This document shows positions 3,003 through 18,050 of a DNA stretch of 18,050 bases, in pieces. Positions within the stretch are counted from its first letter, which is position 1, and the number at the start of each line of letters is the position of its first letter. The position numbers and the translations under genes were made by a program. The stretch spans positions 1-18,050 of the forward strand of contig JALHUF010000515.1 in the NCBI GenBank assembly GCA_022866195.1, written 5' to 3'. Source of the DNA: Terriglobia bacterium (GTDB taxonomy: Bacteria; Acidobacteriota; Terriglobia; UBA7540). The notes beneath the pieces are model-generated. The model searched no databases. It had not been told where the DNA came from and saw only the letters and a list, made by a program, of their open reading frames with translations.

Positions 3003-3416
3003 GAGCTGCTTCCCCCTCTGGATCTCCAGGCCGGCGGCGCGGCAGGAGAGGGGATGGTCAACTCCATTGCGCTGTCGTCGGAAACGCCCACCACCTGTGC
3101 CGCATGCAGGCACATCAAGCCACACCGAAAGAAAAGGCTGACGCAACCTTGGGATAAGTTCCGCATAGTGTTGGGCCTGCGCAGAAACCGCTGGATCTAC
3201 TTTGCCAAGGCTTTCGCGCCGGGGCATGATGCCGTGTCATCTTCCCAGCGCAGCGCAACCCACCTCGTGCCGAAAGGATGGGCGAGCCACCAGGACGACC
3301 GGCCCATGGCGATTGTAAAGCAAGTGAGAGTGGGGCGGAAGTTCCTTCCCGACGCATGGCCAACGCGCGGCCTTCGCGTTGCCTAGAGGACTGCGCAGAG
3401 GGCGACCAAGCGCGCG
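3003..3416. other. Intergenic stretch upstream of the aas-like gene
   Basis: These 414 bases separate the stop of the uroporphyrinogen-decarboxylase-like gene from the aas-like start. Several frames stay open (one extends the aas frame to 3227, one runs on the plus strand across aas), but none has both a start site and protein-like composition. The promoter of the aas-like gene probably lies here; I could not find a convincing -35/-10 pair. No RNA gene or repeat was recognised. Confidence 0.45.
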
Positions 3417-4677: not shown

Positions 4678-6681
4678 CTACTTCCCGGCAATTTTCGTGT
4701 AGCGGAGTTGCTGCTTGCCGATGTCGCGGGGGTAGACGATCTCCACGTCGGCGATTCTGCCGTTCTTGCCGTAGCGCGGCATAAGGTCGGAATTGATTCC
4801 GGTCCAGAATATCGGCAGATCGATTTGCTTGTAACGCTCCACCACTTGGTCCCGCCAGGCGGGGTCGAAATGGATGCCGTATTGCGTGATGAGCGCCTGG
4901 GCGGCGGCATAATCGCCCTCGGCCTTGATGCGCATCAGTTCGGCCAGCAGCAGGCCCACGCCCTGGCGCATCTTCTCGTAATCCTTCACCACCATGTAGG
5001 TTTTCCCGTCGCGCTCGACGGGTCCGACGGCCCCGGTCTTGTCGCGGATGAAGTTGATGACGAGCTGCGTGCCGCGCCGGTGGTCTTCCTCAATGGTGTC
5101 GCCGGTGGGGACTTCGCGGAGTTGCACCAGCGCCGCGCGCGCCTCGCCGTCGTACGCGGCTTTGGCAACCTCGAAGTCCGGCAAGGCGGCGATTTCAATC
5201 ACTTTCGGATCGAAGAAATTCCACAGGGCCACCAGGTCGGCGCGCGCCTCCTCCAGCGTGGAATAGTATTCCTTGAGGTAGGACGCGGGCTCCTGCGTGA
5301 GCTTGGGGTTCATCTTGCCGGAGCCATGGCCCAGGACCTCGTGCATGGCGGTGAAGAGGTTGTCGGCCAGTTCGCGGTACTGGCGGGCGCGCTCGATCTC
5401 CTCTGCGGAGAAGGCAAACTCTTCAGTTGCCTTCTCGCCAGTGGCCGCGGACAGGGCGCGAATGGAGCTAGTGAAGACAAAGCTCTTGCTGCCGAACTTG
5501 TCGTGGATTTCCGCCTCGTTGGGTAGGTTCTCGCCAATTGTGGAGACATCGAAGTCGGCTGTCTCGATGACTGTCTCCACTGCTTTGGCGAGAGGCGGGT
5601 GAGGGTTTTCCAGTTTGTACTGTTCCGCCCAGGGGGCACGCTGTTCGAAGTAGCGGGCGTTGGCGGCGAAGCCCTGCATCAACCGGTTCAGCTTCGCATC
5701 GATCACGGTCACGTAAGCCTGCGCCGCTCCTTTCACGCCCCGCGCGTCCTTGTAGACCTCAATGAAGCCGTGAGTAAAATCAACGGCGGAGTCGTCCCGC
5801 ACCCAGTCGATGTTGAATTGCCGCCAGTCGGCAGGATCACCCGTCTGGTAGTACCGGATCAGATCGTTGAGGACTTTCTTCTGTGAGGCGCCGGCGTAGG
5901 GCAGTGCCATCTTCAAGTAACGAATGGCGCGACCGAGTTCCGCGGCATAAAGCCCTGCGAGAATGCTCCCGTCTGGAGTCCCGGCGCGATAAACCTGCTC
6001 GACTAGCTTTCCGTCCTTCTTCACCAGGCGGGAATTGAGCGGGTATCGTTCGGCGAATCCCTGGAGGTCAGCCATGCGCACGCCCTCGTAGAGGTTATTG
6101 GCGCTCGCTTCGAGAGGGTCCTGGCCGCCGGGCGGGTTCTTCGCGGTGAGCATGGGTTCGAATTCGGGGTCGAAGATCGGCCTGCGCAATTCCTCGAGTT
6201 CCTTCTCCAGCCTTGCGCGTGGGCCCAGTCGCGCACGATTCTTCAACGCCTGTTCGGCCGCGGCTCTCAGCTCTTCGGGAGAAAACTCCGGCAAAAACTT
6301 GCGCGAAGTGGAACTGTTGCGATTTCCACGGTTCGCCCAAAACAGCTTGGTATAGTCAGTGAGCTTCCTGAGCAAGCCGGGGTCGATGCCCTGGGGATGC
6401 GTGAGGATCTGTTCGAGCAAGAGCTTTATGCGCAGGCCGCAAGGGGAATTCTGGTCGAAGACAATAGGATGAATGGCGATGGCAGCCATGGAGAGCCAGT
6501 AGGCCAGGACCTTATCCTTGAGCGCCAAGTCCTTGAAGCTTTCGGCTTGGACTTGCAGGAACCCTGTCGTGCCGACGCGTTCCACCAAGCTCGGCACAGG
6601 GGTTTCAGGCTTCATATCGGCTGCCCCCAACGTCGGTGCCGATAATACAATAAGCAGAACACAGCAAGGTTTGCGGGCCAA
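4678..6681 (-). CDS. Secreted dipeptidyl peptidase III-like zinc peptidase (family M49)
   Basis: With a TTG start at 6681 the protein has 667 residues. It opens with a signal peptide (basic ARK, core CVLLIVLSAP, probable cleavage after LGAA near 21), so it should act outside the inner membrane. The M49 signature HEVLGH lies at 447-452: H447 and H452 as zinc ligands, E448 as catalytic base. A second motif EEARAD (477-482) probably supplies the third ligand, E478, like EECRAE in the family. Other M49-like segments are YYQTGD and GFIEVYKDARGVKG. Dipeptidyl peptidases III remove dipeptides from the N-terminus of short peptides. Length is near the bacterial members (about 675). The start is supported by GAAGGGAG at 6689-6696 and by a promoter at 6710-6740. 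The promoter lies inside the longer frame that could start at 6807, so that longer start is unlikely. Loss of cysteine from EECRAE is a minor variation. Confidence 0.85.
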   Translation of the reverse strand: MARKPCCVLLIVLSAPTLGAADMKPETPVPSLVERVGTTGFLQVQAESFKDLALKDKVLAYWLSMAAIAIHPIVFDQNSPCGLRIKLLLEQILTHPQGIDPGLLRKLTDYTKLFWANRGNRNSSTSRKFLPEFSPEELRAAAEQALKNRARLGPRARLEKELEELRRPIFDPEFEPMLTAKNPPGGQDPLEASANNLYEGVRMADLQGFAERYPLNSRLVKKDGKLVEQVYRAGTPDGSILAGLYAAELGRAIRYLKMALPYAGASQKKVLNDLIRYYQTGDPADWRQFNIDWVRDDSAVDFTHGFIEVYKDARGVKGAAQAYVTVIDAKLNRLMQGFAANARYFEQRAPWAEQYKLENPHPPLAKAVETVIETADFDVSTIGENLPNEAEIHDKFGSKSFVFTSSIRALSAATGEKATEEFAFSAEEIERARQYRELADNLFTAMHEVLGHGSGKMNPKLTQEPASYLKEYYSTLEEARADLVALWNFFDPKVIEIAALPDFEVAKAAYDGEARAALVQLREVPTGDTIEEDHRRGTQLVINFIRDKTGAVGPVERDGKTYMVVKDYEKMRQGVGLLLAELMRIKAEGDYAAAQALITQYGIHFDPAWRDQVVERYKQIDLPIFWTGINSDLMPRYGKNGRIADVEIVYPRDIGKQQLRYTKIAGK

Positions 6682-6709
6682 AGTCCATCTCCCTTCAAAT
6701 GCAGGCAGG

Positions 6710-6740
6710 TTTATACCAGATTCCCCGTACCCCAAGTCAA
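6710..6740 (-). promoter_or_regulatory. Sigma-70-like promoter of the M49 peptidase gene
   Basis: Reading the minus strand, TTGACT (6735-6740) matches the -35 consensus at five of six bases. TATAAA (6710-6715) matches the -10 at five of six and is preceded by TGG, forming an extended -10. The spacer is 19 bases, longer than the ideal 17. Transcription would start near 6703, about 20 bases before the TTG start codon, leaving room only for the ribosome binding site at 6689-6696. Confidence 0.6.
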
Positions 6741-6880
6741 ATCTGGGGGCGGCAAGCGCTCCAGACCCGTGCTCATGCTCTCGCCGATGCGCAGGAGTAG
6801 TTCTCAAGTAAGGGCGTTACCAGCTTCATTCAGCAACCGCGTCTGGAGCGCCGGGGCCATAGCTCTACGTGACCATACAA

Positions 6881-7112: not shown

Positions 7113-7127
7113 TGGCCTCCAGAGTGC
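7113..7127 (+). promoter_or_regulatory. Candidate sigma-54 (-24/-12) promoter before the GcvH-like pair
   Basis: TGGCCTCCAGAGTGC has GG (7114-7115) and GC (7126-7127) separated by exactly ten bases. TGGC matches the -24 core and GTGC matches three of the four -12 bases. It ends 70 bases before the ATG at 7197, similar to the better match before 8934 (78 bases). On its own it is a moderate match; the shared spacing and a sigma-54 activator gene in the same cluster raise its likelihood. Confidence 0.35.
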
Positions 7128-7196
7128 CTTTGGGGATGGCGACAAGAGGGGCTCCGCGGCTTGGGCAAGGCAAATAGCGGAGCAGCGAGGTGCTTG

Positions 7197-7868
7197 ATGG
7201 TCGCTGTACTAGTGGTAGCAACTTTTGTGATCTTCGTTCTGGTGGATTATTACTTCCACCGCCGGGCCCCCCACTTGGTGGAGGTGACGACGGGGATACG
7301 GGAACACGAGGAAGCGCCTCTCCCCATTGGTGTGGTGGGAGGCTTCAAGCTTCCGGCTCACCTCTCGTACCACCCGGGCCACACTTGGGCGATGAAAGAG
7401 GTGAGGCATCTGGTCCGGATTGGTCTGGACGATTTCGCCGCGCGCCTGGTGGGGCAAATCGACCAGATCGAGCTCCCGGCGCGCGGGCGCTGGCTCCGCC
7501 AGGGGGAAAAGGGTTGGACTCTCACGCGCGGCAATCACCGCTTTGAGATGCTCTCGCCCATCGAGGGCGAAGTGGTCGACGTGAACATGGAAATCCTGAA
7601 GGACCCGTCGGCACTTCGGGACGACCCGTTCGGCATCGGCTGGCTAGTGGCGGTTCACGCTCCTGCCGGGGATGCGAATTTGAAGAATCTGCTGCGGGGG
7701 CGGCTGGCGCAGCGCTGGATGGAGGATTCTGTTGCCACCCTCTACAGCCGAATCGGTGGAGGCGCCGAAGTCCACTTTCAGGACGGCGGCCGAGCCATCC
7801 CGGATATCATCGCGCAAGTCCCCGAGGAACGCTGGGAGAAGCTGGTGCGGGAACTATTCTTGTCCTAA
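7197..7868 (+). CDS. Membrane-anchored GcvH-like protein lacking the lipoyl lysine (first copy)
   Basis: The protein has 223 residues. A single membrane helix (about 2-19) is followed by HRR, which by the positive-inside rule places the rest in the cytoplasm. Residues about 50-155 resemble the H protein of the glycine cleavage system: LSYHPGHTWA matches the H protein's HEW region, SPIEGEVVDVN matches the hairpin after the lipoyl site, and DDPFGIGWL matches the conserved PYG-GWL. In H protein the lipoylated lysine lies eight residues before the proline of the hairpin; that residue is N113 here, with no lysine beside it. It therefore cannot carry lipoate there and is not a working H protein. 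A C-terminal extension (about 160-223) ends in DGG and W--LVRELFLS, also seen in the next gene. The ATG at 7197 has GAGGTGCTTG before it; an in-frame start at 7056 would add 47 unlikely residues. The two GcvH-like genes are 67 bases apart. Confidence 0.75.
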   Translation: MVAVLVVATFVIFVLVDYYFHRRAPHLVEVTTGIREHEEAPLPIGVVGGFKLPAHLSYHPGHTWAMKEVRHLVRIGLDDFAARLVGQIDQIELPARGRWLRQGEKGWTLTRGNHRFEMLSPIEGEVVDVNMEILKDPSALRDDPFGIGWLVAVHAPAGDANLKNLLRGRLAQRWMEDSVATLYSRIGGGAEVHFQDGGRAIPDIIAQVPEERWEKLVRELFLS

Positions 7869-7935
7869 GCGCGTCGCCCGATGGCCTGCGCCTGCACAGT
7901 GGGACGAGCCGAAAGGTTAGGGAGGAGCCCCGATA

Positions 7936-8631
7936 ATGGTTGCCATCTTTGTGGCTTTGACATTCATCGGTTTTATCTTGCTCGATGTCCTTATCCAGAA
8001 GTGGCAAGAGCGGCGGGGAGCTCGTGCTGGAAGGCCGGCTGCGAGCCCGTGGCTATCGCCTTCGGGCCGGGAGAAGCTCGCCGGTTGGATCTCGGTTCCC
8101 GAGGGTGTGTATCTCTCCGAGGGCCACGCCTGGGCCCAGCCTCAGCCGGAGGGCACAGTCCGAGCGGGCGCGGACGGTCTGGTGAGCCGCGCCCTGGGTC
8201 AGGTCAGCAGGGTCATTCTTCCCAAAGTGGGCGACGAAGTAACGGCGGGTAACCCTCTCTTTCACCTGGAACTCAACCGCCGGGTTTTGACCGTTAACTC
8301 TCCGGTGAGCGGAAGAGTCGTTGCAGTGAATCGCCGCCTGCAGGAGCGGCCCGGATTGGTGGCGGATGATCCCTTTGGAGATGGCTGGATCTGCTCCGTA
8401 GTTCCCGTACGTCGAGTGCAGGAAAACGGCGCAATGCGGCTGGGAAATAGAGCTGCCGAATGGCTTAAGCAAGAGGTTGGTCGGCTGCGAGAGTTCATTT
8501 CCACGCGGCTGACGCCTGACCTTGCGCTGGGGCTAACCAGCCAGGACGGCGGTGCGCCAGCCCGTGGTTGTCTGGCGCGATCTGACGCGAAGGCGTGGAT
8601 TGACTTTGAGCGAGAATTCCTGCGCTCGTGA
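7936..8631 (+). CDS. Membrane-anchored GcvH-like protein lacking the lipoyl lysine (second copy)
   Basis: The protein has 231 residues and the same plan as its upstream neighbour, so the pair probably arose by tandem duplication and then diverged. A membrane helix (about 2-20) is followed by a basic stretch (QKWQERRGAR), predicting a cytoplasmic body. The GcvH-like domain (about 52-157) shows YLSEGHAWA, GQVSRVILPKVGDEV, NSPVSGRVVAVN and DDPFGDGWI, closer to true H protein than the first copy. The residue at the lipoylation position is R115 instead of lysine. The C-terminal tail repeats the DGG and W--F-REFLRS ending of the first copy. The ATG at 7936 follows GGGAGGAGCCCCGATA, a strong ribosome binding site. 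Because both copies keep the fold but lose the lysine, a scaffold or small-ligand-binding role is more likely than carrying aminomethyl groups. No glycine cleavage genes (T, P or L protein) lie nearby. Confidence 0.76.
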   Translation: MVAIFVALTFIGFILLDVLIQKWQERRGARAGRPAASPWLSPSGREKLAGWISVPEGVYLSEGHAWAQPQPEGTVRAGADGLVSRALGQVSRVILPKVGDEVTAGNPLFHLELNRRVLTVNSPVSGRVVAVNRRLQERPGLVADDPFGDGWICSVVPVRRVQENGAMRLGNRAAEWLKQEVGRLREFISTRLTPDLALGLTSQDGGAPARGCLARSDAKAWIDFEREFLRS

Positions 8632-8650
8632 TGAGATTCATTGGCGCGGC

Positions 8651-8668
8651 GCGGCGGCGCACCGCCGC
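8651..8668. repeat. GC-rich hairpin after the second GcvH-like gene
   Basis: GCGGCG (8651-8656) and CGCCGC (8663-8668) can pair around a six-base loop, 19 bases after the stop codon at 8631. No run of T follows, so this is not a classical intrinsic terminator. It may still slow transcription or protect the 3' end of the GcvH-like mRNA before the separate promoter at 8842. Confidence 0.35.
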
Positions 8669-8697
8669 AAAGTGTTGCTTATGCCCACCTCGACAGG

Positions 8698-8708
8698 GGT
8701 TCCGAACC
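8698..8708. repeat. Short palindrome upstream of the sigma-54 promoter
   Basis: GGTTC-C-GAACC is a perfect 5-base inverted repeat around one base. It lies 144 bases before the sigma-54 element at 8842, within the usual range for an NtrC-family activator site. Its sequence differs from the palindrome at 6973-6984, so a common binding protein is not shown. Confidence 0.3.
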
Positions 8709-8793
8709 TTCCCCGACAACATTCCTCTCTGTGAATAGAGTGGCCAGCTGGGTTATTTCCCGGCTTCGCAGAGTGTGAGCCCATCAGCACGAA

Positions 8794-8822
8794 GAATGTC
8801 GGAGAAAATGGCCGAATGTGGC
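8794..8822 (+). repeat. Direct repeat GAATGT(C/G)G(G/C), 20 bases apart
   Basis: GAATGTCGG (8794-8802) and GAATGTGGC (8814-8822) share their first six bases and start 20 bases apart, about two turns of the helix. They lie 20-48 bases before the sigma-54 -24 box at 8842. Such phased repeats can be binding sites for an activator or accessory protein, but the match is short and could be chance. Confidence 0.25.
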
Positions 8823-8841
8823 GGTTTTGTGTTGAAATTAT

Positions 8842-8857
8842 CGGCACGCTGCGTGCT
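8842..8857 (+). promoter_or_regulatory. Sigma-54 (-24/-12) promoter of the ferredoxin/NrfD/two-component operon
   Basis: CGGCACGCTGCGTGCT matches the sigma-54 consensus TGGCACG-N4-TTGC(A/T) at ten of twelve specified positions. GG (8843-8844) and GC (8855-8856) have the required ten-base spacing. It lies in a 302-base gap with no gene, 78 bases before the ATG at 8934. The operon it would drive encodes a sigma-54-dependent activator (12684-14039), so the system probably controls its own expression. Transcription would start near 8868. Confidence 0.65.
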
Positions 8858-8933
8858 AATGAAAGCAGCGGGCGGTACAAAATGGGGGCGACTTTGTGTC
8901 TCTCCCCGATGAACTTTTGGAGACCTTGGCAGC

Positions 8934-9692
8934 ATGAGCAAAGCCATCTTGGTGGACACAACGCGGTGCATCGGCTGTGGCGCATGCGTCAGCGCCTGCA
9001 AGGAGGCCAATGGGTTACCCCAGAATGAAGACACGACGCTGACGGCTGAGACGCTGAATATCGTGGAGTCCCATTCCGGCGTTTTTGTCCGGAAGTTCTG
9101 CATGCACTGTCAGGACCCAACGTGCGTCTCGGTTTGCCCCGTGGGCGCGTTGCGCAAGACGGCGGCCGGGCCAGTGATTTACGAGGAGAGCCGGTGCATG
9201 GGCTGCCGTTACTGCATGATAGCCTGCCCGTTCGGTATTCCGCGCTATGAGTGGAAGCTGGTACTGCCGAAGGTGAAGAAATGCACTATGTGCGCCCCGC
9301 GGCAGGCCAAGGGCTTGCAGCCTGCGTGCACCGAAGCCTGTCCCGTCCAGGCCAGCATCTTCGGCGAGCGCAATGAGCTGCTGCGGGAGGCTGAGAACCG
9401 TCTTCGGCAGAATCCCGCTGGCTATGTTCAGCACATTTACGGAAAAGATGAGGTGGGGGGCACCTCGGTACTTTACCTCTCCGCGGTGCCTTTTGAAGCG
9501 CTCGGCTTTCCGGCCAACGTCCCGCATGACCCCTTGCCCATGTACACCTACCGCGTGCTCTCCGAGATACCGAATGTGGTCGCTGTGGGCACAGTGCTCC
9601 TGGGTGGGATCTGGTGGATCACGAAGCGTCGCGCCGAGGTAGCGTATGCGGAGGGCGAGGAGAAAGGAACGCCCAAGGCAAGCGACGGCTAA
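8934..9692 (+). CDS. Four-cluster [4Fe-4S] ferredoxin subunit, HybA/FdnH type, membrane anchored
   Basis: The protein has 252 residues with sixteen cysteines in four groups: C12/15/18/22, C56/59/64/68, C88/91/94/98 and C117/120/132/136. That is the pattern of four [4Fe-4S] clusters in electron-transfer subunits such as HybA, FdnH and NrfC. A single C-terminal membrane helix (about 213-230) is followed by KRR, as in FdnH and HybA. These subunits pass electrons between a catalytic subunit and a membrane quinone protein; the next gene encodes such a protein, 74 bases downstream. No Tat signal precedes the first cluster. Either the domain is cytoplasmic, or it is exported with a Tat-bearing partner as FdnH is with FdnG. 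The KRR after the helix favours export. No catalytic subunit is encoded in the window. The ribosome binding site before ATG 8934 is modest (TTGGAG, about 12 bases upstream). Confidence 0.88.
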   Translation: MSKAILVDTTRCIGCGACVSACKEANGLPQNEDTTLTAETLNIVESHSGVFVRKFCMHCQDPTCVSVCPVGALRKTAAGPVIYEESRCMGCRYCMIACPFGIPRYEWKLVLPKVKKCTMCAPRQAKGLQPACTEACPVQASIFGERNELLREAENRLRQNPAGYVQHIYGKDEVGGTSVLYLSAVPFEALGFPANVPHDPLPMYTYRVLSEIPNVVAVGTVLLGGIWWITKRRAEVAYAEGEEKGTPKASDG

Positions 9693-9766
9693 CGCCGAGG
9701 CCTGCCGCCAGTGATGATTGCCTGTGCTGGTGGGCCGGGCCGAAAACCTTGGGGCGGGGAGCGCAG

Positions 9767-10942
9767 ATGAACTGGACGAGGCTACCGAAACTGACCTTCT
9801 GGCGCGTGGTGCTGGCGGTGATTCTGGCCACGGGTTTCTACTCCGCGCTCCTGCGCTTCACCCAAGGCCTGGGTGCCGCGACCGCTTTGACTGACCGCTT
9901 CCCGTGGGGACTGTGGATCGGCTTTGACGTGCTCTGCGGCGTGGGCTTGGCGGCGGGGGGCTTCACCCTGGCGGCCATTGTTTACATCTTTCACCTGGAG
10001 CGATTTCAGCCTATCGTTCGTCCCACGATTCTGACGGCTTTCCTGGGGTATGCGCTGGTGGCGGTGGCGTTGCTTTTCGACTTGGGCCGCCCGTATAGGA
10101 TCTGGCACCCCATGGTGATGTGGAACCCCCGGTCCGTCATGTTTGAGGTGGCGTGGTGTGTGATGCTCTACCTGACGGTGTTGGCGCTGGAGTTCTCGCC
10201 GGTGGTTTTTGAGCGCTTTCGGTGGCAGAGGCCTCTCCGGATCGTAAAGGCCCTCACCGTTCCCCTGGTGATTGCGGGGGTGTTGCTTTCCACCCTGCAC
10301 CAGTCCTCGCTGGGTAGTCTTTATCTGATCGTCCCCTCCAAGCTGCACCCTTACTGGTATTCGCCGTTGTTGCCGGTGTTCTGTTTCGTCTCCGCCATTG
10401 GGGTGGGTCTGGCGATGGTGATTTTTGAGTCGAACTTGAGCGCGCGGGCCTTTGGCCGGGAGATTGAAATGCCGCTGCTGGTGGACTTGGGGAAGGGGAT
10501 GGTCGTGGTGTTGGCGTTCTATGGACTGATGCGTTTTCAGGATCTGGCTAGCCACGGTACGTTGCGCTACCTGCGCGAGCCTTCGACGGAGACCGTGTTG
10601 TTTGCGCTGGAAACTCTCCTGGGGGTAGTAATTCCGCTGGCCTTCCTGGCTTTCCGCCGGGTGCGGGAGAGTCGCGAAGGGCTGTTTGCCGCGGCGGTGC
10701 TGGTGATCACGGGTTTCCTGCTCAACCGTCTGAACGTTTCCATCACGGGTCTGGAAGCCTCGTCGGGGACGCATTACTTCCCCAAGTGGACTGAGGTTTC
10801 CGTGACCTTATCCCTGGTGGGTTTAGGGTTTCTGTTTTTCGCACTGGCGGTTCGTTACTTCGGCGTGTTTGAGTCGCACTCGGCGGGGGCAGAAGCCCGG
10901 CGCCAGCCGGAAAGGGCGAACACTCCTGTACCGGTGGTGTGA
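9767..10942 (+). CDS. HybB/NrfD-type integral membrane quinone-interacting subunit
   Basis: The protein has 391 residues, the length of E. coli HybB (392), and about ten hydrophobic segments (near 13-29, 49-73, 88-106, 126-143, 163-177, 202-221, 241-256, 276-296, 305-320 and 344-364). Segments such as HPMVMWNPRSVMFEV and TLHQSSLGSLYLI are typical of the HybB/NrfD family. Members sit in the inner membrane without haem and exchange electrons between a quinone pool and a partner iron-sulfur subunit, here the preceding gene. The ATG at 9767 has GGGGCGGGGAGCGCAG before it and gives the family length. An earlier in-frame start at 9614 would overlap the ferredoxin gene and add 51 polar residues with no family match. 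The pair probably forms a membrane module that couples quinol or quinone chemistry to an unseen partner. Confidence 0.88.
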   Translation: MNWTRLPKLTFWRVVLAVILATGFYSALLRFTQGLGAATALTDRFPWGLWIGFDVLCGVGLAAGGFTLAAIVYIFHLERFQPIVRPTILTAFLGYALVAVALLFDLGRPYRIWHPMVMWNPRSVMFEVAWCVMLYLTVLALEFSPVVFERFRWQRPLRIVKALTVPLVIAGVLLSTLHQSSLGSLYLIVPSKLHPYWYSPLLPVFCFVSAIGVGLAMVIFESNLSARAFGREIEMPLLVDLGKGMVVVLAFYGLMRFQDLASHGTLRYLREPSTETVLFALETLLGVVIPLAFLAFRRVRESREGLFAAAVLVITGFLLNRLNVSITGLEASSGTHYFPKWTEVSVTLSLVGLGFLFFALAVRYFGVFESHSAGAEARRQPERANTPVPVV

Positions 10943-10984
10943 ACGCGTCCGGGGGTGCCCGGAGATAAGGAAAGAGGAGAAAGG

Positions 10985-12631
10985 ATGCAGCGGCTGACCA
11001 CCAGTCTGGCGACGAAGCTGACGGCCTGCTTGGTCGGCAGCATGGTGGTGCTGTTTGGTTTCCTCGGGTATCTGAACCTTCGCCTCCACCGTCAGCACCT
11101 GGAGGAGATGGTCTTCCTGAGCGCCGACCGCATTAGCGACCTTATCCGGCGTAGCATCCGTTATTCGATGCTCCGCGACCAACGCGAAGAAGTCTTCCAG
11201 ATCATCCAGACCATCGGCCATCAGCCCGGCATCAGCAAAATTCGCATTTTCAATAAGGAAGGCAAGATTACCTTTTCCACCGATGCCCAGGAACTCGGGC
11301 AGTCCGTGGATGAGAAGGCGGAGGCTTGCTACGCCTGCCACGCTGAGGCTCAGCCGCTCAAGCGTCTGGACCGTCCCGACCGGATGCGCATCTACGTGGC
11401 CCGCAATGGCCAGCGCGTGCTCGGCTTGATTACCCCCATCGAGAATGAGCCGGATTGCTCCAACGCCGCCTGCCACGCCCACTCCGCAGCGGGTAACCAG
11501 GTGCTGGGCGTGCTCGATACGGACCTATCGCTGAGCGCGGTTGATCAAAGTCTGGCTCTCCGCCAGCGAAAGTTGGCATTCTTTACCGGCCTCTCAATCC
11601 TCGCCGTCAGCCTGATCTCTGTGGTGCTCATCTGGGTAATGGTACGCAGGCCAGTGCGGGCGTTGACCGAGGGGACGCGCCACGTGGCGGAAGGAGACCT
11701 GGACTACTCCCTCCCGGTAACCAGTGCGGACGAGATCGGGAGCTTGGCGGCTTCTTTCAACCACATGACCGCCCAGCTGAAGAAGGCGCAGCAGGAGATT
11801 CTGGAGTGGACCCGGACGCTGGAGGAGCGTGTCCGGCAGAAAACCAGCGAACTCGAGCGCGCCTACAAGCACCTGGTTCAGGCGGAGAGGATGGTGTCGT
11901 TGGGAAAGCTCGCGGCGGTGGTGGCGCACGAAATCAACAATCCCCTGGCGGGGATTCTGACTTATACCAAGCTGGTTTCGCGGATGGCGGAGAAAGGTTT
12001 CAATGGGAGCGAGCGGTTGGGCGAGGCGCGGAACTACCTGCAGGTCGTGGAGGGAGAGAGCCGGCGCTGCGGCGCGATTGTGAAGAACCTCCTAACCTTC
12101 GCCCGCCAGGCGCCCCTGAACCCGCAGAAGAACGACTTAAACGGCATCGTTGAGCGCTGCCTGCTGCTGGTGGGGCATCAGTTGGAGCTGCAGTCCATCG
12201 ACTTGGAGAAGACCCTGGCGGCGGACATTCCTTCTCTTTACTGCGACACCGGCCAGGTACAGCAGGCATTGCTGGCCCTGCTGATGAACGCGGTGGAAGC
12301 GATGCCTCACGGTGGGCGGTTGAGGGTCTCCACTTCCTTCGACTCCTCCCAGCGCGCGGGCCGCGTAGTAGTCAGTGACGAAGGGCCGGGCATCTCGGAG
12401 GAGGTCTTGCCCCACATCTTCGAACCCTTCTTCACCACCAAGGAGGAGGGCAAAGGGGTGGGTCTGGGGCTGGCCATTGCTTTCGGAATTATCCAGCAGC
12501 ACGGTGGGAACATCGAGGTGGTGTCCACGCCGCAGAAGGGCACCACCTTCACCGTGATCGTGCCGGAAGAGGCGCGGGTGGGTGACAAAGCGAGACTCCT
12601 GCCCATGGAGGGAGCCGGCGAAGTCGAGTAA
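10985..12631 (+). CDS. Sensor histidine kinase with periplasmic haem-binding-type motifs
   Basis: The protein has 548 residues. Membrane helices at about 14-34 and 199-220 enclose a periplasmic sensor domain of about 165 residues. This domain holds CYACH (C115, C118, H119), a standard c-type haem attachment motif, and C158-SNAA-C163-H164, a longer CX4CH form also used for haem. A HAMP linker follows (about 221-275), then a coiled coil (about 265-300). The HisKA domain has the phosphorylated histidine H315 in AHEINNPL. The ATPase domain has N435, D465-x-G-x-G, FEPFFTTK and GVGLGL. Kinases of this plan pair with NtrC-type regulators, and the regulator gene follows 52 bases later. Likely signals are redox state or a haem ligand such as O2, NO or CO; this is inference. 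The ATG at 10985 is preceded by GAGGAGAAAGG and lies 42 bases after the HybB-like gene. Confidence 0.92.
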
Positions 12632-12683
12632 GGCCCTCGCGGGCTGAAAACCTGCGCTGCGGGGAGTTTGCCAGGAGAGAGTC

Positions 12684-14039
12684 ATGAATGCCAAAGCCAG
12701 CATCTTGATTGTAGACGACGAAACGGTGGTCCGCGACTCGCTGAGTAAATGGTTCGAGGAAGAAGGCTACAGCGTGGAGACGGCCTCCACTGCCCGCGAG
12801 GCCTTGCTCAAGCTGCCGACCGAGCACTGGGATTTGTCTCTGGTGGACATCAAGATGCCCGGCATGGACGGCCTGGAGTTGCAGCGCAAAATCCGCGAGG
12901 TCAACCCGGAGACTATCGTCATTATTATGACGGGTTATGCCTCCGTGGAGACAGCGGTGCAGGCGCTGAAAGACGGCGCTTACGATTACATCACCAAGCC
13001 TTTTGACCCCGACGACTTGGCGCACGTGGTTCGCAAGGCCCTCGAGCACCGCCGCATGAAGGAGGAGAACATACGGCTGCGCGAGAGCCTGGAAGAGATG
13101 CAGGGCGTGGAGCTGGTGGGGCAGAGTCCGCCCATGCAGAAAGTCCTGGAGATGGTGCGGACAGTCGCTCCCACGGATACGACCGTCCTCATCACCGGCG
13201 AGAGCGGCACGGGCAAGGAGTTGGTGGCCCGCGCTATCCACAACTTGAGCCCTCGCCGCTTCATGCCCCTGGTGGTCATTCACTGTGGCGCCCTGACTGA
13301 GACCCTGCTGGAGAGCGAACTCTTCGGACATGAAAAAGGCGCCTTCACGGGCGCGCAATATCGCAAGAAAGGCAAGTTTGAGGTCGCTGAGGGCGGCACC
13401 GTCTTCCTGGATGAAATCAGTGACATCAGCCTGAAAACCCAGACCGACTTGCTCCGCGTCTTGCAGGAAAAAGAGATTACGCGTGTGGGCGGAACCCAAA
13501 CTATCAAGGTGGATTTTCGCGCCATCGCCGCCACGAACAGGGATCTGGAGGCCAAGGTCAAAGAGGGCACTTTCCGGCCGGACCTCTTCTACCGTTTGAA
13601 TGTGTTCGAGCTGCGGCTTCCCTCCCTGCGGGAACGCAGAGACGACATCCCTTTGTTGGCGGATCATTTCCTCCGCAAGTATGCCCGGGCCATGAACAAG
13701 CGCTTTACGTGCATCAGCAAGCCGGCCGTGGACTTGTTGATGCACTACGATTGGCCGGGAAACGTCCGCGAGTTGGAGAACGCCATCGAGCGGGCCATGG
13801 TGATCGGGCGAGAGCCGGAAATCCAAATCTCCGACTTCCCGCTCCAGGTCAGTTCCGGCACCCAGCCGCCCCTGGGACAAACCCTGGAGGATGTGGAACG
13901 TGCCCACATCCTCAAAGTCCTCGAGGGCTGCAGTTGGAACCAGAGCCTGGCTGCCCGGGTCCTTAAGATCGACCGGGTGACGCTCTACAACAAAATCAAG
14001 AAATATGGGTTCAAGAAGGCCGGATCCGCGTCGTCATGA
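12684..14039 (+). CDS. Sigma-54-dependent response regulator (NtrC/AtoC family)
   Basis: The 451-residue protein has the full three-domain plan. The receiver domain (1-120) has acidic D11/D12, phosphorylated D55, T83 and K105. The AAA+ domain (about 143-375) has Walker A GESGTGKE (172-179), the sigma-54 contact loop GAFTGA (219-224), Walker B GGTVFLDE (237-244), and the FRPDLFYRLNVFELRLPSLRER-type region (split here by my naming only). A Fis-type helix-turn-helix closes it (about 410-445, SLAARVLKIDRVTLYNKIKKYG region). Phosphorylated regulators of this class form rings that remodel sigma-54 RNA polymerase at -24/-12 promoters. Three such candidate promoters lie in this cluster (7113, 8842, 14628), so they are the obvious targets. 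The ATG at 12684 follows CAGGAGAGAGTC. The partner is almost certainly the kinase encoded just upstream. Confidence 0.95.
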   Translation: MNAKASILIVDDETVVRDSLSKWFEEEGYSVETASTAREALLKLPTEHWDLSLVDIKMPGMDGLELQRKIREVNPETIVIIMTGYASVETAVQALKDGAYDYITKPFDPDDLAHVVRKALEHRRMKEENIRLRESLEEMQGVELVGQSPPMQKVLEMVRTVAPTDTTVLITGESGTGKELVARAIHNLSPRRFMPLVVIHCGALTETLLESELFGHEKGAFTGAQYRKKGKFEVAEGGTVFLDEISDISLKTQTDLLRVLQEKEITRVGGTQTIKVDFRAIAATNRDLEAKVKEGTFRPDLFYRLNVFELRLPSLRERRDDIPLLADHFLRKYARAMNKRFTCISKPAVDLLMHYDWPGNVRELENAIERAMVIGREPEIQISDFPLQVSSGTQPPLGQTLEDVERAHILKVLEGCSWNQSLAARVLKIDRVTLYNKIKKYGFKKAGSASS

Positions 14040-14563
14040 GAATTGTTTCCCTCCTCCCGGTCGGGGAAGTCGACCGGGCCCACCTCGAATTGCTTGCCGA
14101 GGGTCTGGTGCCGATCCTGCGGGTGGCCTGCTCCATCCACACCGAAGGCTTGGAGGTCGCCTTTGCCTTCGACTCCTTGCGAGGGCAGTATCACTCCGCG
14201 GAGCTCCTGCGACGTCTGATGAAGCAGCCTGCGGTCGAGACCTGGCGGCTACTGGGCGTGACCGAGGCCGATCTCTATATCCCCATACTGACGTTTGTCT
14301 TCGGGGAGGCGCAGCTCGGACCCGCAAGCGCAGCGACCGCCCTGGTCTCGATGCATCGGCTTCGGCAGGAATTCTACGGGATGCCCCCGGACCCTGCCGT
14401 CCTGGCTGATCGGCTTCTCAAGGAAGCGCTCCACGAACTGGGTCACACGCTGGGCCTGCGGCATTGTCCGGCCTACCGCTGTGTGATGAGTTCTTCCCAC
14501 TCCGTCGAGAACATTGACTTGAAGCTGGCGCAGTTCTGCTCCACGTGCGCCCCCGCCCTCTGA
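14036..14563 (+). CDS. amzA: Archaemetzincin-type zinc metalloprotease
   Basis: The 175-residue protein ends in the archaemetzincin signature. HELGHTLGLRH runs from H133 to H143 and gives three zinc-binding histidines (H133, H137, H143) and catalytic E134. It continues with C144-x4-C149-x-M151, the Met-turn methionine, and a final C168-x2-C171. The four cysteines bind a second, structural zinc in this family. The M151-to-C168 gap is 16 residues, one less than in the usual consensus. Archaemetzincins occur in archaea, some bacteria and animals; their natural substrates are largely unknown. There is no signal peptide, so it should be cytoplasmic. The ATG overlaps the stop of the regulator gene (ATGA, 14036-14039), which implies translational coupling and a shared role or expression with the two-component system. 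Confidence 0.93.
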   Translation: MRIVSLLPVGEVDRAHLELLAEGLVPILRVACSIHTEGLEVAFAFDSLRGQYHSAELLRRLMKQPAVETWRLLGVTEADLYIPILTFVFGEAQLGPASAATALVSMHRLRQEFYGMPPDPAVLADRLLKEALHELGHTLGLRHCPAYRCVMSSSHSVENIDLKLAQFCSTCAPAL

Positions 14564-14627
14564 CAAGGCCTCGCTTGGTCCACATCTGCCCCCGATCCGC
14601 ATTGACGGTCTTGACGTTCTTCGCCTC

Positions 14628-14643
14628 TGGATGCAGGATTGCT
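14628..14643 (+). promoter_or_regulatory. Candidate sigma-54 (-24/-12) promoter before the radical SAM-hemerythrin gene
   Basis: TGGATGCAGGATTGCT has GG (14629-14630) and GC (14641-14642) separated by ten bases, with a perfect -12 box TTGCT but only TGG matching in the -24 part. It lies in the 153-base gap after the archaemetzincin gene and ends about 75 bases before ATG 14717, like the other two candidates. If correct, the in-frame TTG at 14639 falls inside the promoter and cannot be the start codon. Confidence 0.35.
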
Positions 14644-14716
14644 GAAGGGGCAGCGGGGCGGCTTCTCTGAGTTGGACGCTTCCCCGCGCCTCGGAGAGTC
14701 GAGAGGTTTCACGTCG

Positions 14717-16360
14717 ATGGCGCGATTCAGCGAGCACTGGGCGTCCGAGCGAGGTCGGATTGAGGCCTTGTGCGCGATGTCGGCGCCGGCGCGCCCCATC
14801 GAGGCGATTGTCCAAACGGCGGAGACGCTCGGGGGCCTGGGAGCGGAGGACGCAGCTTCTTTGCTTGCGTGGGGACGGGAGCCGGCCGCGCGCGCTGAAA
14901 TTCAGGCAGCCGCGCGCCAACTTCGCCGCCGGGTTGCCGGAAACACCCTCGAGTTTATCATCCCTGAGTATCTGACCAGTTTCTGTCAGAACGACTGCCT
15001 CTATTGCGGCTACCGCAAATCCAATCCCCTGGCAGAGCGCGTGCGGCTGAGCCTGGAGCATTACGAACGCGAGCTCGGTCTGATCCTTTCCTGGGGGCAC
15101 CGGCAGATCGAGTTGGTGCTGGCGGAAGATGCCGAGTTCGGCCCTGATCGGCTGGCGGCCTACGTCGAGCTGACAAGGCGGAAATTGGAGGCCCTCGGCG
15201 GGGGACTTGTGGCGCTGAACGCTCCGCCTTACGAGGCAGAGGATTATCGCCGCCTGCGCGCGGCGGGACTTGATTGGGTGGCGCTTTGGCAAGAGACCTA
15301 CGATCAGCCGCACTTCGAGCGCTGGCATTTCCCCGGCTCGCCCAAGCGGCACTACGAGTTTCGCTTGGACGTTTGGGATCGCGCGATTGCGGCGGGATTC
15401 ACGCGCGTGGCTCTGGGAGTGCTGTTTGGCCTGTACGACTGGCGATTCGACGTGCTGGCATTGGTGGAGCATGGGAACTATCTGCGCCGGACCCACGGTC
15501 TTGAACCCTACGTCCTCGGCATTCCTCGCCTCAAACCTGCCCGGGGGGTGCTCGCCTCGCAGAAGCCGTCACGGTTCAGCGTGTCCGATGAAGATTACCA
15601 GCTTGCCGTTAGCATCTATCACTTGGCATTCCCGCGCGCGCGCTTGTTTCTCAATACCCGCGAGAGCTACGACTTCAACCTGTCCATGGTGGCGGGCGGC
15701 GACCTCTTCACCGTGGACTGCGAGACGCTGCCGGGTGCGTACCTTCGCGGGCGCCTGCCCGGCCAGTTCACCACGCACGCTTACCCGCCGCGACGGGAAG
15801 TGGCCGCGACTTTCCAGAGCCGCGGTTATACTTGCCGATATCTCGCGCCGGAAAGCGCCGCGCCGCCTGCCGAACAGCCCTTGCGACTGACGCAGCCGGT
15901 CGAAGCCGGGGACCTGGAACAGTGGAGACGCGAACACCGCGAGATTCGCGTCCGGCTGGCCGACTGGGAGAATTTCCTGGAGAGACTGAAGACGACGCCC
16001 GCGGCTGAGCGCCAAGTGGTGGCGGCGGAGCTACGGGAGACGCTCACATTCTTCGAAACCGTCGCCGTCGCGCACTTTCGCTATGAGGAAACAGTCCTGC
16101 TCGCGGCTCTGGCACGGGGGGCCGAGAACGCAGCTCAGGTCGCTGACCTGCGGCGCGGTCACGAACGCTTTGGGATTGACCTGGACAGGTTTCAAAGACA
16201 GGTGACCTCTTACGAGCTCTCGGGAGATCCCAGCGTCCTGTTGACCTTGGGGGCACGGATGATCCGCGAACTCCGCGAACACCTCGAGGCGGAAGAGAAG
16301 TGGGCGCAAAGCTCGTTGGAAGTCGGAATGAATCGGGAGTTGCAGGCAGATTGCCCTTGA
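14717..16360 (+). CDS. ThiH/HydG-like radical SAM protein fused to a C-terminal hemerythrin-like domain
   Basis: The protein has 547 residues from ATG 14717. The first 375 or so resemble the ThiH/HydG group of radical SAM enzymes. The cluster motif is CX3CX2C (C90, C94, C97) in SFCQNDCLYCGYRKSNP, close to the ThiH and HydG form, and the last part of the barrel region (NTRES, then QF and a final RGY) fits that group. ThiH and HydG cleave tyrosine, and HydG then makes CO and cyanide. The C-terminal CX2C-containing cluster motif of HydG is absent (only isolated cysteines remain there), so it is not ordinary HydG. Residues about 395-540 form a four-helix hemerythrin-like domain with H407, H453 in AHFRYEE, H482 and H522 in REHLEAEE, suited to a di-iron site. 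That domain could sense or bind O2 or NO, or be a target for modification. A TTG at 14639 could add 26 residues but overlaps a candidate promoter. Substrate unknown. Confidence 0.85.
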   Translation: MARFSEHWASERGRIEALCAMSAPARPIEAIVQTAETLGGLGAEDAASLLAWGREPAARAEIQAAARQLRRRVAGNTLEFIIPEYLTSFCQNDCLYCGYRKSNPLAERVRLSLEHYERELGLILSWGHRQIELVLAEDAEFGPDRLAAYVELTRRKLEALGGGLVALNAPPYEAEDYRRLRAAGLDWVALWQETYDQPHFERWHFPGSPKRHYEFRLDVWDRAIAAGFTRVALGVLFGLYDWRFDVLALVEHGNYLRRTHGLEPYVLGIPRLKPARGVLASQKPSRFSVSDEDYQLAVSIYHLAFPRARLFLNTRESYDFNLSMVAGGDLFTVDCETLPGAYLRGRLPGQFTTHAYPPRREVAATFQSRGYTCRYLAPESAAPPAEQPLRLTQPVEAGDLEQWRREHREIRVRLADWENFLERLKTTPAAERQVVAAELRETLTFFETVAVAHFRYEETVLLAALARGAENAAQVADLRRGHERFGIDLDRFQRQVTSYELSGDPSVLLTLGARMIRELREHLEAEEKWAQSSLEVGMNRELQADCP

Positions 16361-16395: not shown

Positions 16396-18050
16396 ATGCA
16401 CCGTTCCTTTCACGTTCATCACCTTCGCGTGATCGTTGTCTCGCTCTTCGTCTCGTTGGCTGTGACTGTGCTACCGGGGCAGCTGTCGGCCATCGACTGG
16501 TCAACCCTTTTTACGGCCCAGGATGTGCGCGATCACCTCTCGACCCCGCAGGGCCGCGCCGAGGCCCTGGAGTTCTGCCGCAAGATGGGCATCAGCAAGG
16601 TTTATGTCGAGGCCTTTCGCGACGGCTATCAGGCCGACGCGGCGGCGCTGAAGACTGCGCGCGACTTCTTCCGCCAGGCAGGATTGAAGGTCTCCGGCTG
16701 TGTCACCACCACGCGGTTCGGCAAGCCTACCAGCGGTTGGGAGGTTGGTGCCTGCTACACCCACCGCGCCAACCAGGAGCACCTGGCCTCCATCTTTGCC
16801 TTTACGGCGCAGCTCTTCGACGAAATCATGATCGACGACTTCTTTTTCACCGATTGCGAGTGCTCGGAATGCGCGGCGGCCAAAGGCGCAATGAGTTGGC
16901 GGCAGTACCGCGAAAAGCTGATGCTCGACGTGAGCCGCAACCGCGTGCTCGGCCCGGCCCGCCAGGCCAATCCCAATGTCAAGATCATTCTGAAGTACCC
17001 GCAGTGGTACGACGAATTCCATAACCGGGGCTATATCGTCGACAAAGAAACGGCGCTCTTCGACCGCATCTGGATGGGCACGGAGCTGCGTGACCCGAGC
17101 TCCGACGAGTGGGGACACAAACAGCAGTATGAAGGCTTCTTCATTTACCGCTGGATGGCCGAAATTGGCGCCGAAAAGCTCGGCGGCGGCTGGTTCGATC
17201 CTTACGGGACCAACCCTGTCCTTTATCTAGACCAACCGTATGTGACGGTGCTGGCGGGCGCGCCGGAGATCCTGCTGTTTTGTTACGGCTCATTGGTTTC
17301 GCCGGAATTTCGGCCCCAGGCGGAAGCCTTCGCCCCCCGGCGCACGGAATTCGAGGCCCTGAGCAAACTGGTCGGAGACTGGAAGGGCATTCCTGCTTAC
17401 AAGCCACCTTCGAGCGAGGCGGGCAACGAAGCGTATCTCTTTGACCAGATTGGCATGCTCGCGGTCCCGCTTCTGCCGACCGCGCGCTTTCCCGAGGGCG
17501 CGCGCGCCGCGCTCTTCACCGTCCACGCCCTGGAGGACGCGGAGTTTGTGCCCAAACTGGCGGGCTTCCTCAAGGCGGGTGGGACGGCCTTCCTGAGCGA
17601 GGGCCTGGCGCACCGGTTAAACGGCGACCCACGCTTGCCCACGTCGAGTCCGTTGGAGCTTCCGAAAGGAAAGCACGTTCAGGTAATTCCGCACGGTGAT
17701 GGCAAGTTGGTGGTGTTTTCCGCTGCACTGCCGCGCCTGACTTATGTTGATGCGCAGAACCGGGGAGCACAGCCGACGCCGGAGCTGCGTGAGGCTTTGG
17801 AGACCCTGCGGAAGGAGGTCTCGCAATTCACGGTCACCTCTCTTGATGCGCCACCACGCGTGGCGGTGTTTCCCCTGGGCGGCCGGGTGGCCGTCGTGAA
17901 TTTCACAGAACTTCCGGTCAATTGTCGTCTGGCGGGCCTTTGCTCTCGCCTTCACGCTGATGCTCAATCTCCTCTCCAGCTTCGCTGCCCTTCTGGCGAG
18001 GGGGGTCGGGTTTCGGCGGTTGTCCCGTGTGCTGACAGCGGTTGGCGGGG
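16396..18050 (+). CDS. Secreted protein of unknown function, possibly a glycoside-hydrolase-like TIM barrel (3' end missing)
   Basis: The reading frame is open from ATG 16396 to the right edge (551 codons) without a stop. The N-terminus has a signal peptide: basic residues in HRSFHVHHLR, a core VIVVSLFVSLAVTVL, and probable cleavage after QLSA near 32. The mature part contains YVEAFRDGYQADA, a FDEIMIDDFFFTD segment with a compact cysteine group (DCECSECAAAKG, with a further Y-R--LM-DV), ILKYPQWYDEF, and FDRIWMGTELRD. These strand-then-acidic-residue patterns resemble the barrel strands of glycoside-hydrolase-like proteins, where the DD and E residues could be catalytic. A later part (about 350-460) reads like a GATase-type or Rossmann segment (VHALEDAEFVPKLAGFLKAGGTAFLSEG). 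I do not recognise the family. It follows the radical SAM gene by 35 bases with AAGGAG 11 bases before the ATG, so it may be read from the same transcript, though a link in function is not evident. Confidence 0.75.
   Translation, partial: MHRSFHVHHLRVIVVSLFVSLAVTVLPGQLSAIDWSTLFTAQDVRDHLSTPQGRAEALEFCRKMGISKVYVEAFRDGYQADAAALKTARDFFRQAGLKVSGCVTTTRFGKPTSGWEVGACYTHRANQEHLASIFAFTAQLFDEIMIDDFFFTDCECSECAAAKGAMSWRQYREKLMLDVSRNRVLGPARQANPNVKIILKYPQWYDEFHNRGYIVDKETALFDRIWMGTELRDPSSDEWGHKQQYEGFFIYRWMAEIGAEKLGGGWFDPYGTNPVLYLDQPYVTVLAGAPEILLFCYGSLVSPEFRPQAEAFAPRRTEFEALSKLVGDWKGIPAYKPPSSEAGNEAYLFDQIGMLAVPLLPTARFPEGARAALFTVHALEDAEFVPKLAGFLKAGGTAFLSEGLAHRLNGDPRLPTSSPLELPKGKHVQVIPHGDGKLVVFSAALPRLTYVDAQNRGAQPTPELREALETLRKEVSQFTVTSLDAPPRVAVFPLGGRVAVVNFTELPVNCRLAGLCSRLHADAQSPLQLRCPSGEGGRVSAVVPCADSGWR

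Follow-up and report, generated by a model that had tools for sequence, protein, structure and literature searches.

A candidate signalling regulon of Acidobacteriota that joins GcvH-like proteins, a HybA-HybB pair and a haem-c two-component system

The window analysed here is a whole contig of 18,050 bases from the draft genome (3.58 Mb in 727 contigs) of a Terriglobia bacterium of the phylum Acidobacteriota. It carries eight adjacent plus-strand genes, among them the members of the candidate signalling regulon that is the subject of this work. Profile searches and the reading of the open reading frames (ORFs) recovered all eight, with the families and in the order first described: two GcvH-like proteins (GcvHa and GcvHb), a HybA/HmcB-like iron-sulfur protein, a HybB/HmcC-like membrane subunit, a histidine kinase, an NtrC-type response regulator, an archaemetzincin-family zinc protease and a radical SAM-hemerythrin fusion. 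The short gaps and the single ATGA overlap reported in the preliminary description of this DNA are there as well; the spacings in gene order are 67, 302, 71 (from 9764), 42, 52, -4 and 153 bases, the negative value being the ATGA overlap between regulator and archaemetzincin. Two start codons had to be corrected. That of HybB is ATG 9767 (9764 is a CAG codon), and for the radical SAM gene ATG 14717 appears more likely than TTG 14639, because the relatives align from there.

The first two genes, GcvHa (7197..7868) and GcvHb (7936..8631), encode membrane-anchored proteins matching PF01597 (60.3 bits with the longer reading frame of GcvHa, 70.4 bits for GcvHb). GcvHa is composed of an N-terminal transmembrane (TM) helix, a cytosolic GcvH-fold domain and a C-terminal helical extension with the motif QDGG. 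Its AF2 model (mean pLDDT of 83) has H-proteins as nearest PDB folds, and the best Foldseek match (1onl, TM-score 0.90 by target length) predicts an H-protein fold. Both proteins of the pair miss the TIGR00527 equivalog cut-off of 115.85 bits (56.6 and 65.7 bits), and the lipoyl-accepting lysine is absent from both in the alignment. Among the aligned sequences (17 of 284 had been dropped beforehand) a lysine occupies this column in 2 of 136 GcvH-like proteins, with 10 more gapped there, and in 4 of 129 proteins in which a receiver is fused to the GcvH domain (REC-GcvH); both of the other GcvH proteins of the window's genome have it. The loss of the lysine indicates that the GcvH-like proteins are not lipoyl redox carriers, and this role was rejected together with a part in glycine cleavage. 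Positive charge (K/R) follows the N-terminal helix in 117 of 117 GcvH-like proteins and precedes it in none, which places the GcvH domain in the cytosol.

The best single clue to the role of this domain comes from its fusion to receivers. In the f32 loci (L170 and L179-L182), whose named protein matches are Geothrix or Holophagaceae, a TM-receiver-GcvH protein (PF00072 and PF01597) is encoded directly 3' of the kinase in a HybA-HybB-kinase run. Near-full-length fused matches beside kinase, HybA and HybB were also found in L184, L185 and L186, which represent three other families, and the receiver motif D..MP is kept in 120 of the 120 fused proteins listed. The fusion suggests that the GcvH domain is a part of two-component signalling rather than of one-carbon chemistry. 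The earlier idea that electrons might pass to or from the GcvH-like proteins is thus not supported, since the lipoyl lysine is lost in nearly all of them and the receiver fusion points to signalling. They share the H-protein fold with the glycine cleavage H protein and with the LbpA-type lipoate-binding proteins of sulfur oxidation (PMC6067878), but differ from both in the membrane anchor, the loss of the lipoyl lysine in nearly all members, the C-terminal extension and, in some lineages, the fusion to a receiver.

The next two genes encode the electron-transfer pair. In the sequence of the HybA/HmcB-like protein (8934..9692) 16 cysteines form four groups, as for four [4Fe-4S] clusters; the protein has a C-terminal TM tail and lacks a twin-arginine (Tat) leader. 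The HybB/HmcC-like protein (9767..10942; PF03916, 92.6 bits) is a quinone-interacting membrane subunit of the NrfD family with ten TM helices and the N terminus inside. Within NCBIfam the iron-sulfur protein scores higher with HmcB (NF045715, 256.7 bits, cut-off 420) than with HybA (NF008134, 214.5 bits, cut-off 263), and the membrane subunit higher with HmcC (NF045714, 341.4 bits, cut-off 550) than with HybB (NF008133, 301.3 bits, cut-off 450). All four scores lie under the curated cut-offs, and we have kept 'HybA' and 'HybB' as labels although HmcB and HmcC score higher. A sequence search of the PDB with HybB gave no match. The pair resembles HmcB/HmcC of the Hmc complex of sulfate reducers and HybA/HybB of E. 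coli hydrogenase-2 in combining a four-cluster iron-sulfur protein that has a C-terminal tail with a ten-helix subunit of the NrfD family, oriented as in E. coli HybB. Unlike in these systems, HybA usually lacks the Tat leader, and the window has no NiFe or multihaem gene and kinase, regulator, protease and GcvH-like genes instead.

The two-component pair follows. The histidine kinase (10985..12631; PF21563, PF00672, PF00512, PF02518) has a periplasmic sensor with the haem-c motifs CYACH and CSNAACH, followed by HAMP, HisKA and HATPase domains. Among 70 homologues with the N terminus in view CxxCH was found in 64, and either CxxCH or CxxxxCH in all 70. The regulator (12684..14039; PF00072, PF00158, PF02954) has a receiver, a sigma-54 AAA+ domain with GAFTGA (conserved in 56 of 63 regulators examined) and a Fis helix-turn-helix (HTH), and with the kinase gene adjacent this is the make-up of a sigma-54-dependent two-component system. 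It is thus a kinase and sigma-54 regulator pair like those of the NtrC family (AtoSC, ZraSR), with AtoS and AtoC as best NCBIfam matches, below their cut-offs. It differs from them in the haem-c-type sensor, in an apparent regulon of GcvH-like and HybAB genes, and in the archaemetzincin gene that overlaps the regulator gene. The archaemetzincin (14036..14563) scores 153.5 bits with NF033823, above the cut-off of 145; HEXXH is present in 55 of 55 unmasked homologues and the fuller motif in 42. Curated cut-off and HEXXH are shared with peptidase family M54, and both score and motif are those expected of an active protease. What sets it apart is the recurrent context with HybAB and a two-component system; no such genomic context was found in our literature searches on archaemetzincin.

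The case for a functional unit rests first on recurrence. Six families recur jointly across Acidobacteriota, namely the GcvH-like, HybA/HmcB-like and HybB/HmcC-like proteins, the haem-c kinase, the sigma-54 regulator and the archaemetzincin. We have sampled loci from named genomes as the best 80 of 155 confirmed GcvHa relatives; going by record titles, 78 belong to Acidobacteriota groups, one to Riflebacteria (L104) and one to Bacillota (L113). Beside GcvHa in these 80 loci were found HybA (42), HybB (41), kinase (46), regulator (46) and archaemetzincin (38), the kinase and regulator counts taking in weak paralogues. Around the 76 loci with HybA or HybB a kinase was near in 65, a regulator in 53 and an archaemetzincin in 51, with flank lengths that vary between loci and are often short; among the 28 loci whose flanks each reach 6.5 kb or more, every one of the three was present in 26. 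All five genes from HybA to the protease were jointly in view in 51 loci, on the same strand in 45 of them. Near-identical or related loci (for example L098/L120, L105/L108 and L111/L113) are counted separately, and the GcvH count near HybAB (75/76) is circular, GcvH-like baits having picked the loci.

An independent measure came from two further baits, archaemetzincin and HybB, each searched by itself in 199 genomes. The archaemetzincin lay within 10 kb of HybB for 22 of 71 matches above cut-off, against about 0.3 expected at random in 4-Mb genomes, and a chance neighbourhood is ruled out by this proximity. The strongest HybB matches were near a listed GcvH-like or archaemetzincin match in 35 of 52 cases, the GcvH-like list comprising matches to about E 1e-24 in 73 of 297 genomes, with one G115 match dropped as probably canonical GcvH. 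The remaining 49 archaemetzincin matches were not near HybB and 138 of the 199 genomes had no match, so the protease family also occurs elsewhere and not every genome has the full unit. Gene order is shuffled across the phylum while the set is kept, as in kinase-protease-regulator-HybA-HybB-GcvH-GcvH (L172, L192, L193) or kinase-regulator-protease-GcvH-GcvH-HybA-HybB (L169); in L045, L047 and L060 GcvHa stands with kinase and regulator and HybAB does not adjoin. Searches for mobile relatives were negative: the scan of viral contigs found no GcvHb relative, and the plasmid search with GcvHa gave no full-length relative (0 of 16 records cover more than 80% of the query, and 10 of 16 lie over annotated gcvH genes).

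The set of eight proposed as a conserved unit is therefore reduced. Six families stand in many lineages, while GcvHb (11 of the 80 GcvHa loci) was rejected as a constant member and so was the radical SAM gene. The latter (14717..16360) encodes a ThiH/HydG-like radical SAM protein (PF04055, 44 bits; motif CQNDCLYC) with a C-terminal hemerythrin domain (PF01814, 50.4 bits), scoring under the cut-offs for ThiH (TIGR02351, 182.6 against 380) and HydG (TIGR03955, 144.7 against 312.15). A radical SAM gene was counted in 1 of the 80 GcvHa loci, and the fusion is adjacent in 2 of the 76 HybAB loci (the window and L049), and 7 of 61 relatives carry it, 5 of them on a contig other than that of GcvHa; it is facultative, and the view of it as an obligatory component had to be given up. 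All seven holders have a strong GcvHa match (E <1e-20), which 20 of the 61 relatives have (hypergeometric 1.8e-4, shared ancestry ignored). Sigma-54-like sites precede the gene by 59-60 nt in L205 and L206, by 73 nt in the window, where the site is weaker, and by 225 nt in L204; none was found before it in L203 and L207, and the L208 sequence is cut there. The connection of this gene with sigma-54 sites is suggestive only.

Promoter-like sites supply the second line of evidence. We have scanned the 10-110 nt upstream of genes with a weight matrix built from the sigma-54 consensus (threshold 17.9), taking the expectation from dinucleotide shuffles. Sites above threshold precede 70 of 117 GcvH-like genes (4.15 expected) and 18 of 75 HybA genes (2.43 expected); in the three control classes the counts are 1 of 49 (kinase), 0 of 59 (regulator) and 0 of 39 (archaemetzincin). 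Such sites also precede 40 of 53 GcvH-like genes (2.65 expected) that are not followed within 6 kb, on their own strand, by a HybA, kinase or oxidoreductase gene, so these appear to belong to the regulon as members in their own right. In the window, the -24/-12 site TGGCCTCCAGAGTGCC (7113..7128, plus strand) lies 68 nt 5' of GcvHa and scores 17.0, just under threshold and weak alone; in 12 of 12 loci of the clade (L045-L056) a site is found 65-71 nt before GcvHa, with scores of 15.0-19.7. The site CGGCACGCTGCGTGCT (8842..8857, plus strand), 76 nt 5' of HybA, passes with 19.7, and a site is located at 71-77 nt in the seven clade relatives with HybA in view. We conclude that predicted -24/-12 promoters are present at GcvH-like and HybA genes. 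The sigma-54-like promoters said to be shared by the set are borne out by sites conserved ahead of HybA and the GcvH-like genes; scanning the window alone with a plain pattern gave no significant result (6 matches with at most 2 mismatches, 9.6 expected).

The electron partner of the pair is harder to pin down. That the ferredoxin and quinone subunits have no catalytic partner in view agrees with our searches, E. coli HybC, HybO, DmsA and FdnG as queries revealing no hydrogenase or molybdopterin subunit in the window. The same holds for most relatives: with the E. coli proteins as sole tblastn queries, 2 of 76 HybAB loci (L080 and L118) had a NiFe large subunit within 10 kb and none had DmsA/FdnG relatives. 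The conserved neighbourhood is thus mostly one without hydrogenase or formate dehydrogenase catalytic subunits. As the set is conserved and such subunits are rare near HybAB, neither situation named beforehand as speaking against a unit (a neighbourhood not kept in relatives, or a NiFe or molybdopterin subunit regularly beside the pair) is what we find. In L118 HybA and a small cytochrome come first and the NiFe cluster is the next one beyond them; an NrfD-type gene adjoins the NiFe large subunit. As for topology, HybB has ten helices, and an excess of K/R in the presumed inner loops puts the N terminus inside in 58 of 58 proteins, as in E. coli HybB. HybA is therefore expected on the periplasmic face, in agreement with the charge of its C-terminal tail, and because this orientation is uniform a periplasmic partner is favoured. 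For a tail-anchored ferredoxin that has no signal of its own, export together with a Tat partner has been proposed (PMC10924467), so that a hidden exported partner of HybA is conceivable. Tat-like leaders occur on HybA in the distant loci L159, L169, L172, L173, L184, L186, L192, L193, L194 and L198, a switch of export mode within one conserved unit.

These observations taken together make us lean, without great confidence, towards a signalling regulon of Acidobacteriota built around a quinone-linked membrane electron-transfer pair, HybA-HybB. The periplasmic c-type-haem sensor of the kinase would respond to a redox or gas cue, and the kinase would phosphorylate the NtrC-type regulator, which with sigma-54 would switch on the genes of the membrane-anchored GcvH-like proteins and the HybA-HybB operon, where comparison places the sites. 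HybB would exchange electrons with menaquinone and HybA would pass them to or from a partner encoded elsewhere, periplasmic by homology. The GcvH domain, which without its lipoyl lysine would have ceased to carry substrate, may serve the two-component pathway from the cytosolic side of the membrane, tethered there as a docking or switch domain, as the receiver fusion in Holophagaceae and some further lineages indicates; the archaemetzincin probably processes a component of the pathway. Comparison of sequences is what underlies this scheme, through the gene set, the promoter sites, the predicted topology of the GcvH domain, the loss of its lipoyl lysine, the receiver fusion and the haem-c motifs of the kinase. 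A bolder version, which we offer as a doubtful possibility, is that the membrane-tethered H-protein fold without lipoyl lysine is a phosphorylation-controlled gate of the quinone-linked Fe-S/NrfD module, so that the two-component system would set both its transcription and its activity, and that the archaemetzincin would clear or mature the gate.

Several points weigh against the regulon. Phosphotransfer, promoter use and binding by the GcvH domain are predictions, and the named loci come mostly from metagenome-assembled genomes, many of them kin. No site above threshold precedes 57 of the 75 HybA genes, where in operons it may lie further upstream. Near HybAB in L170, L179-L182 and L184-L186 the count was zero both for separate NtrC-type regulators and for archaemetzincins, so neither is indispensable. 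In L041 and L043 the GcvH-HybA-HybB trio has Rieske/cytochrome b and multihaem cytochrome genes as neighbours, and a search of 6 kb detected no kinase. A further point concerns HybA. A twin-arginine motif was flagged in only 12 of 75 homologues (two of them chance RR pairs by eye); the protein of the window and most of the 75 begin at the conserved ferredoxin start without a leader, about ten distant ones having one. This conflicts with the orientation of HybB and the positive C-terminal tail, both of which call for a periplasmic Fe-S domain. From sequence alone no partner of HybA is evident.

The leaderless HybA, along with the cytosolic GcvH domain, is what would be expected if input came from the cytosol, from 2-oxoacid:ferredoxin oxidoreductases through HybA and HybB to menaquinone, with the GcvH-like protein tethering or gating the complex. 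Genes of this kind are enriched round the GcvH-like genes: 22 alpha-subunit matches were found in 19 of the 80 loci (1.23 Mb), where an assumed density of 4 per 4.5 Mb would give 1.1 and that of the window's own draft genome (4 in 3.58 Mb) 1.4. They are of the VorB/KorA type, and many are accompanied by a relative of butyryl-CoA:acetate CoA-transferase; in distant lineages (L071, L076, L185, L189, L036) they are co-directional with the unit and close to it. Of the 76 HybAB loci 11 have oxidoreductase genes within 10 kb, and such genes occur in 4 of the 40 phylum-wide loci. Nevertheless we judge this explanation rather unlikely. HybB has the E. coli orientation in 58/58 and the tail of HybA is positive on the side expected to be cytosolic; the four alpha-subunit genes of the window's genome are all on other contigs. 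The other 65 of the 76 HybAB loci have no oxidoreductase genes in the stretch examined, which is often short. Nor are sigma-54 sites enriched at them (alpha 0/19, delta 0/13 and small operon-leading gene 1/12, on a background of 9.6% of 250-nt windows); such a promoter is found upstream of them only where GcvHa stands upstream on the same strand (7 of 9). Direct control of these genes by the regulator was demoted as a candidate, there being no enriched sites of their own.

Alternatively, HybA-HybB might itself be part of the sensor, signalling to the kinase and the GcvH-like/receiver protein how reduced the quinone pool is, with no catalytic partner at all. The usual absence of a catalytic subunit near the pair would fit, as would the kinase gene nearby in 26 of 28 loci with enough flank and the REC-GcvH fusion in the same gene run as the pair. 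We consider this improbable, since contact is not directly evidenced, the kinase has a haem-type sensor of its own (CxxCH in 64/70), and four 4Fe-4S clusters with an NrfD-family subunit suit electron transfer between enzyme and quinone, from what is known of the family (PMC8076601).

An Hmc/Nhc-like respiratory complex, with HybA-HybB joining menaquinone to a periplasmic cytochrome c and the remaining genes as ordinary neighbours, is improbable as well. In its favour, HmcB and HmcC are the best NCBIfam matches, and of the 76 HybAB loci 20 have an ORF with at least three CxxCH motifs within 6 kb and 11 a small monohaem cytochrome within 3 kb. Against it, no multihaem frame was seen in the window (and so no 16-haem HmcA with HmcB/C), the other 56 loci have no such frame within 6 kb or the stretch examined, some of the 20 frames have 3 CxxCH motifs only and may be chance, the kinase-regulator-protease association is too regular for ordinary neighbours, and GcvH and HybA share a promoter type. 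Frames with 14-16 CxxCH (a motif count only) are found nearby in L057, L164 and L186.

Returning to the regulon, every family in the set was already known; the combination and the role of GcvH appear to be new. We found no published description of the gene set or of a signalling role of GcvH in the literature searched, which is thin in subscription journals, and to that extent the earlier remark that no characterised system with this set was known holds. The possible undescribed membrane redox-signalling system of the preliminary description survives as a conserved unit with sigma-54 sites, and loses electron carriage by GcvH and the obligatory radical SAM protein. Orphan NrfD/HybAB pairs, bacterial archaemetzincins and non-lipoylated GcvH proteins would thereby share one context, open to testing, in a phylum that is abundant in soil. 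The fusion seen in REC-GcvH suggests a signalling use of the H-protein fold that we have not found described in the literature searched. Isolates of Geothrix, a holder of the fused form, are culturable and may permit direct tests. The sigma-54 sites predict a regulon, and the leaderless HybA with its export-type tail poses a sharp topology puzzle.

Some other arrangements seen in the relatives are worth recording. L104 (6342-15462), titled Candidatus Riflebacteria, contains two facing sets, one of GcvHa, kinase, regulator and protease and the other of protease, HybB, HybA and GcvH genes. In L041 (10234-18235) and L043 (9856-17842) the GcvH-HybA-HybB genes lie by those for a NapC/NirT-type cytochrome, a Rieske protein, a cytochrome b and a nine-haem cytochrome (domains from L041 only), possibly a hybrid bc/NrfD respiratory cluster. 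A recurrent operon was found in L071 (3867-8563), L076 (342-5076), L102, L122, L167 and L168; it encodes a small protein with a sub-threshold RsbRD_N match, a CoA-transferase, VorD, VorB and a fused beta-gamma oxidoreductase, and in several loci it lies just 3' of GcvHa with a sigma-54 site. Two genes 5' of GcvHa in L054 and L055 (contigs also numbered L033 and L032) look by eye like the cytochrome c biogenesis genes ResB/CcsA.

On the minus strand of the window, upstream of the gene set, two genes were named by eye, an acyltransferase/AMP-binding fusion-like protein (789-3227) and a UroD/methyltransferase-like protein (3417-4598). A large peptidase-like gene (4681-6807, minus strand), by eye like dipeptidyl-peptidase III, is divergent from GcvHa and has a homologue in the same place in L045, L046 and L047. 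Finally, 3' of the radical SAM gene, a long plus-strand ORF with a signal-like N terminus (16396-18050) runs off the contig.

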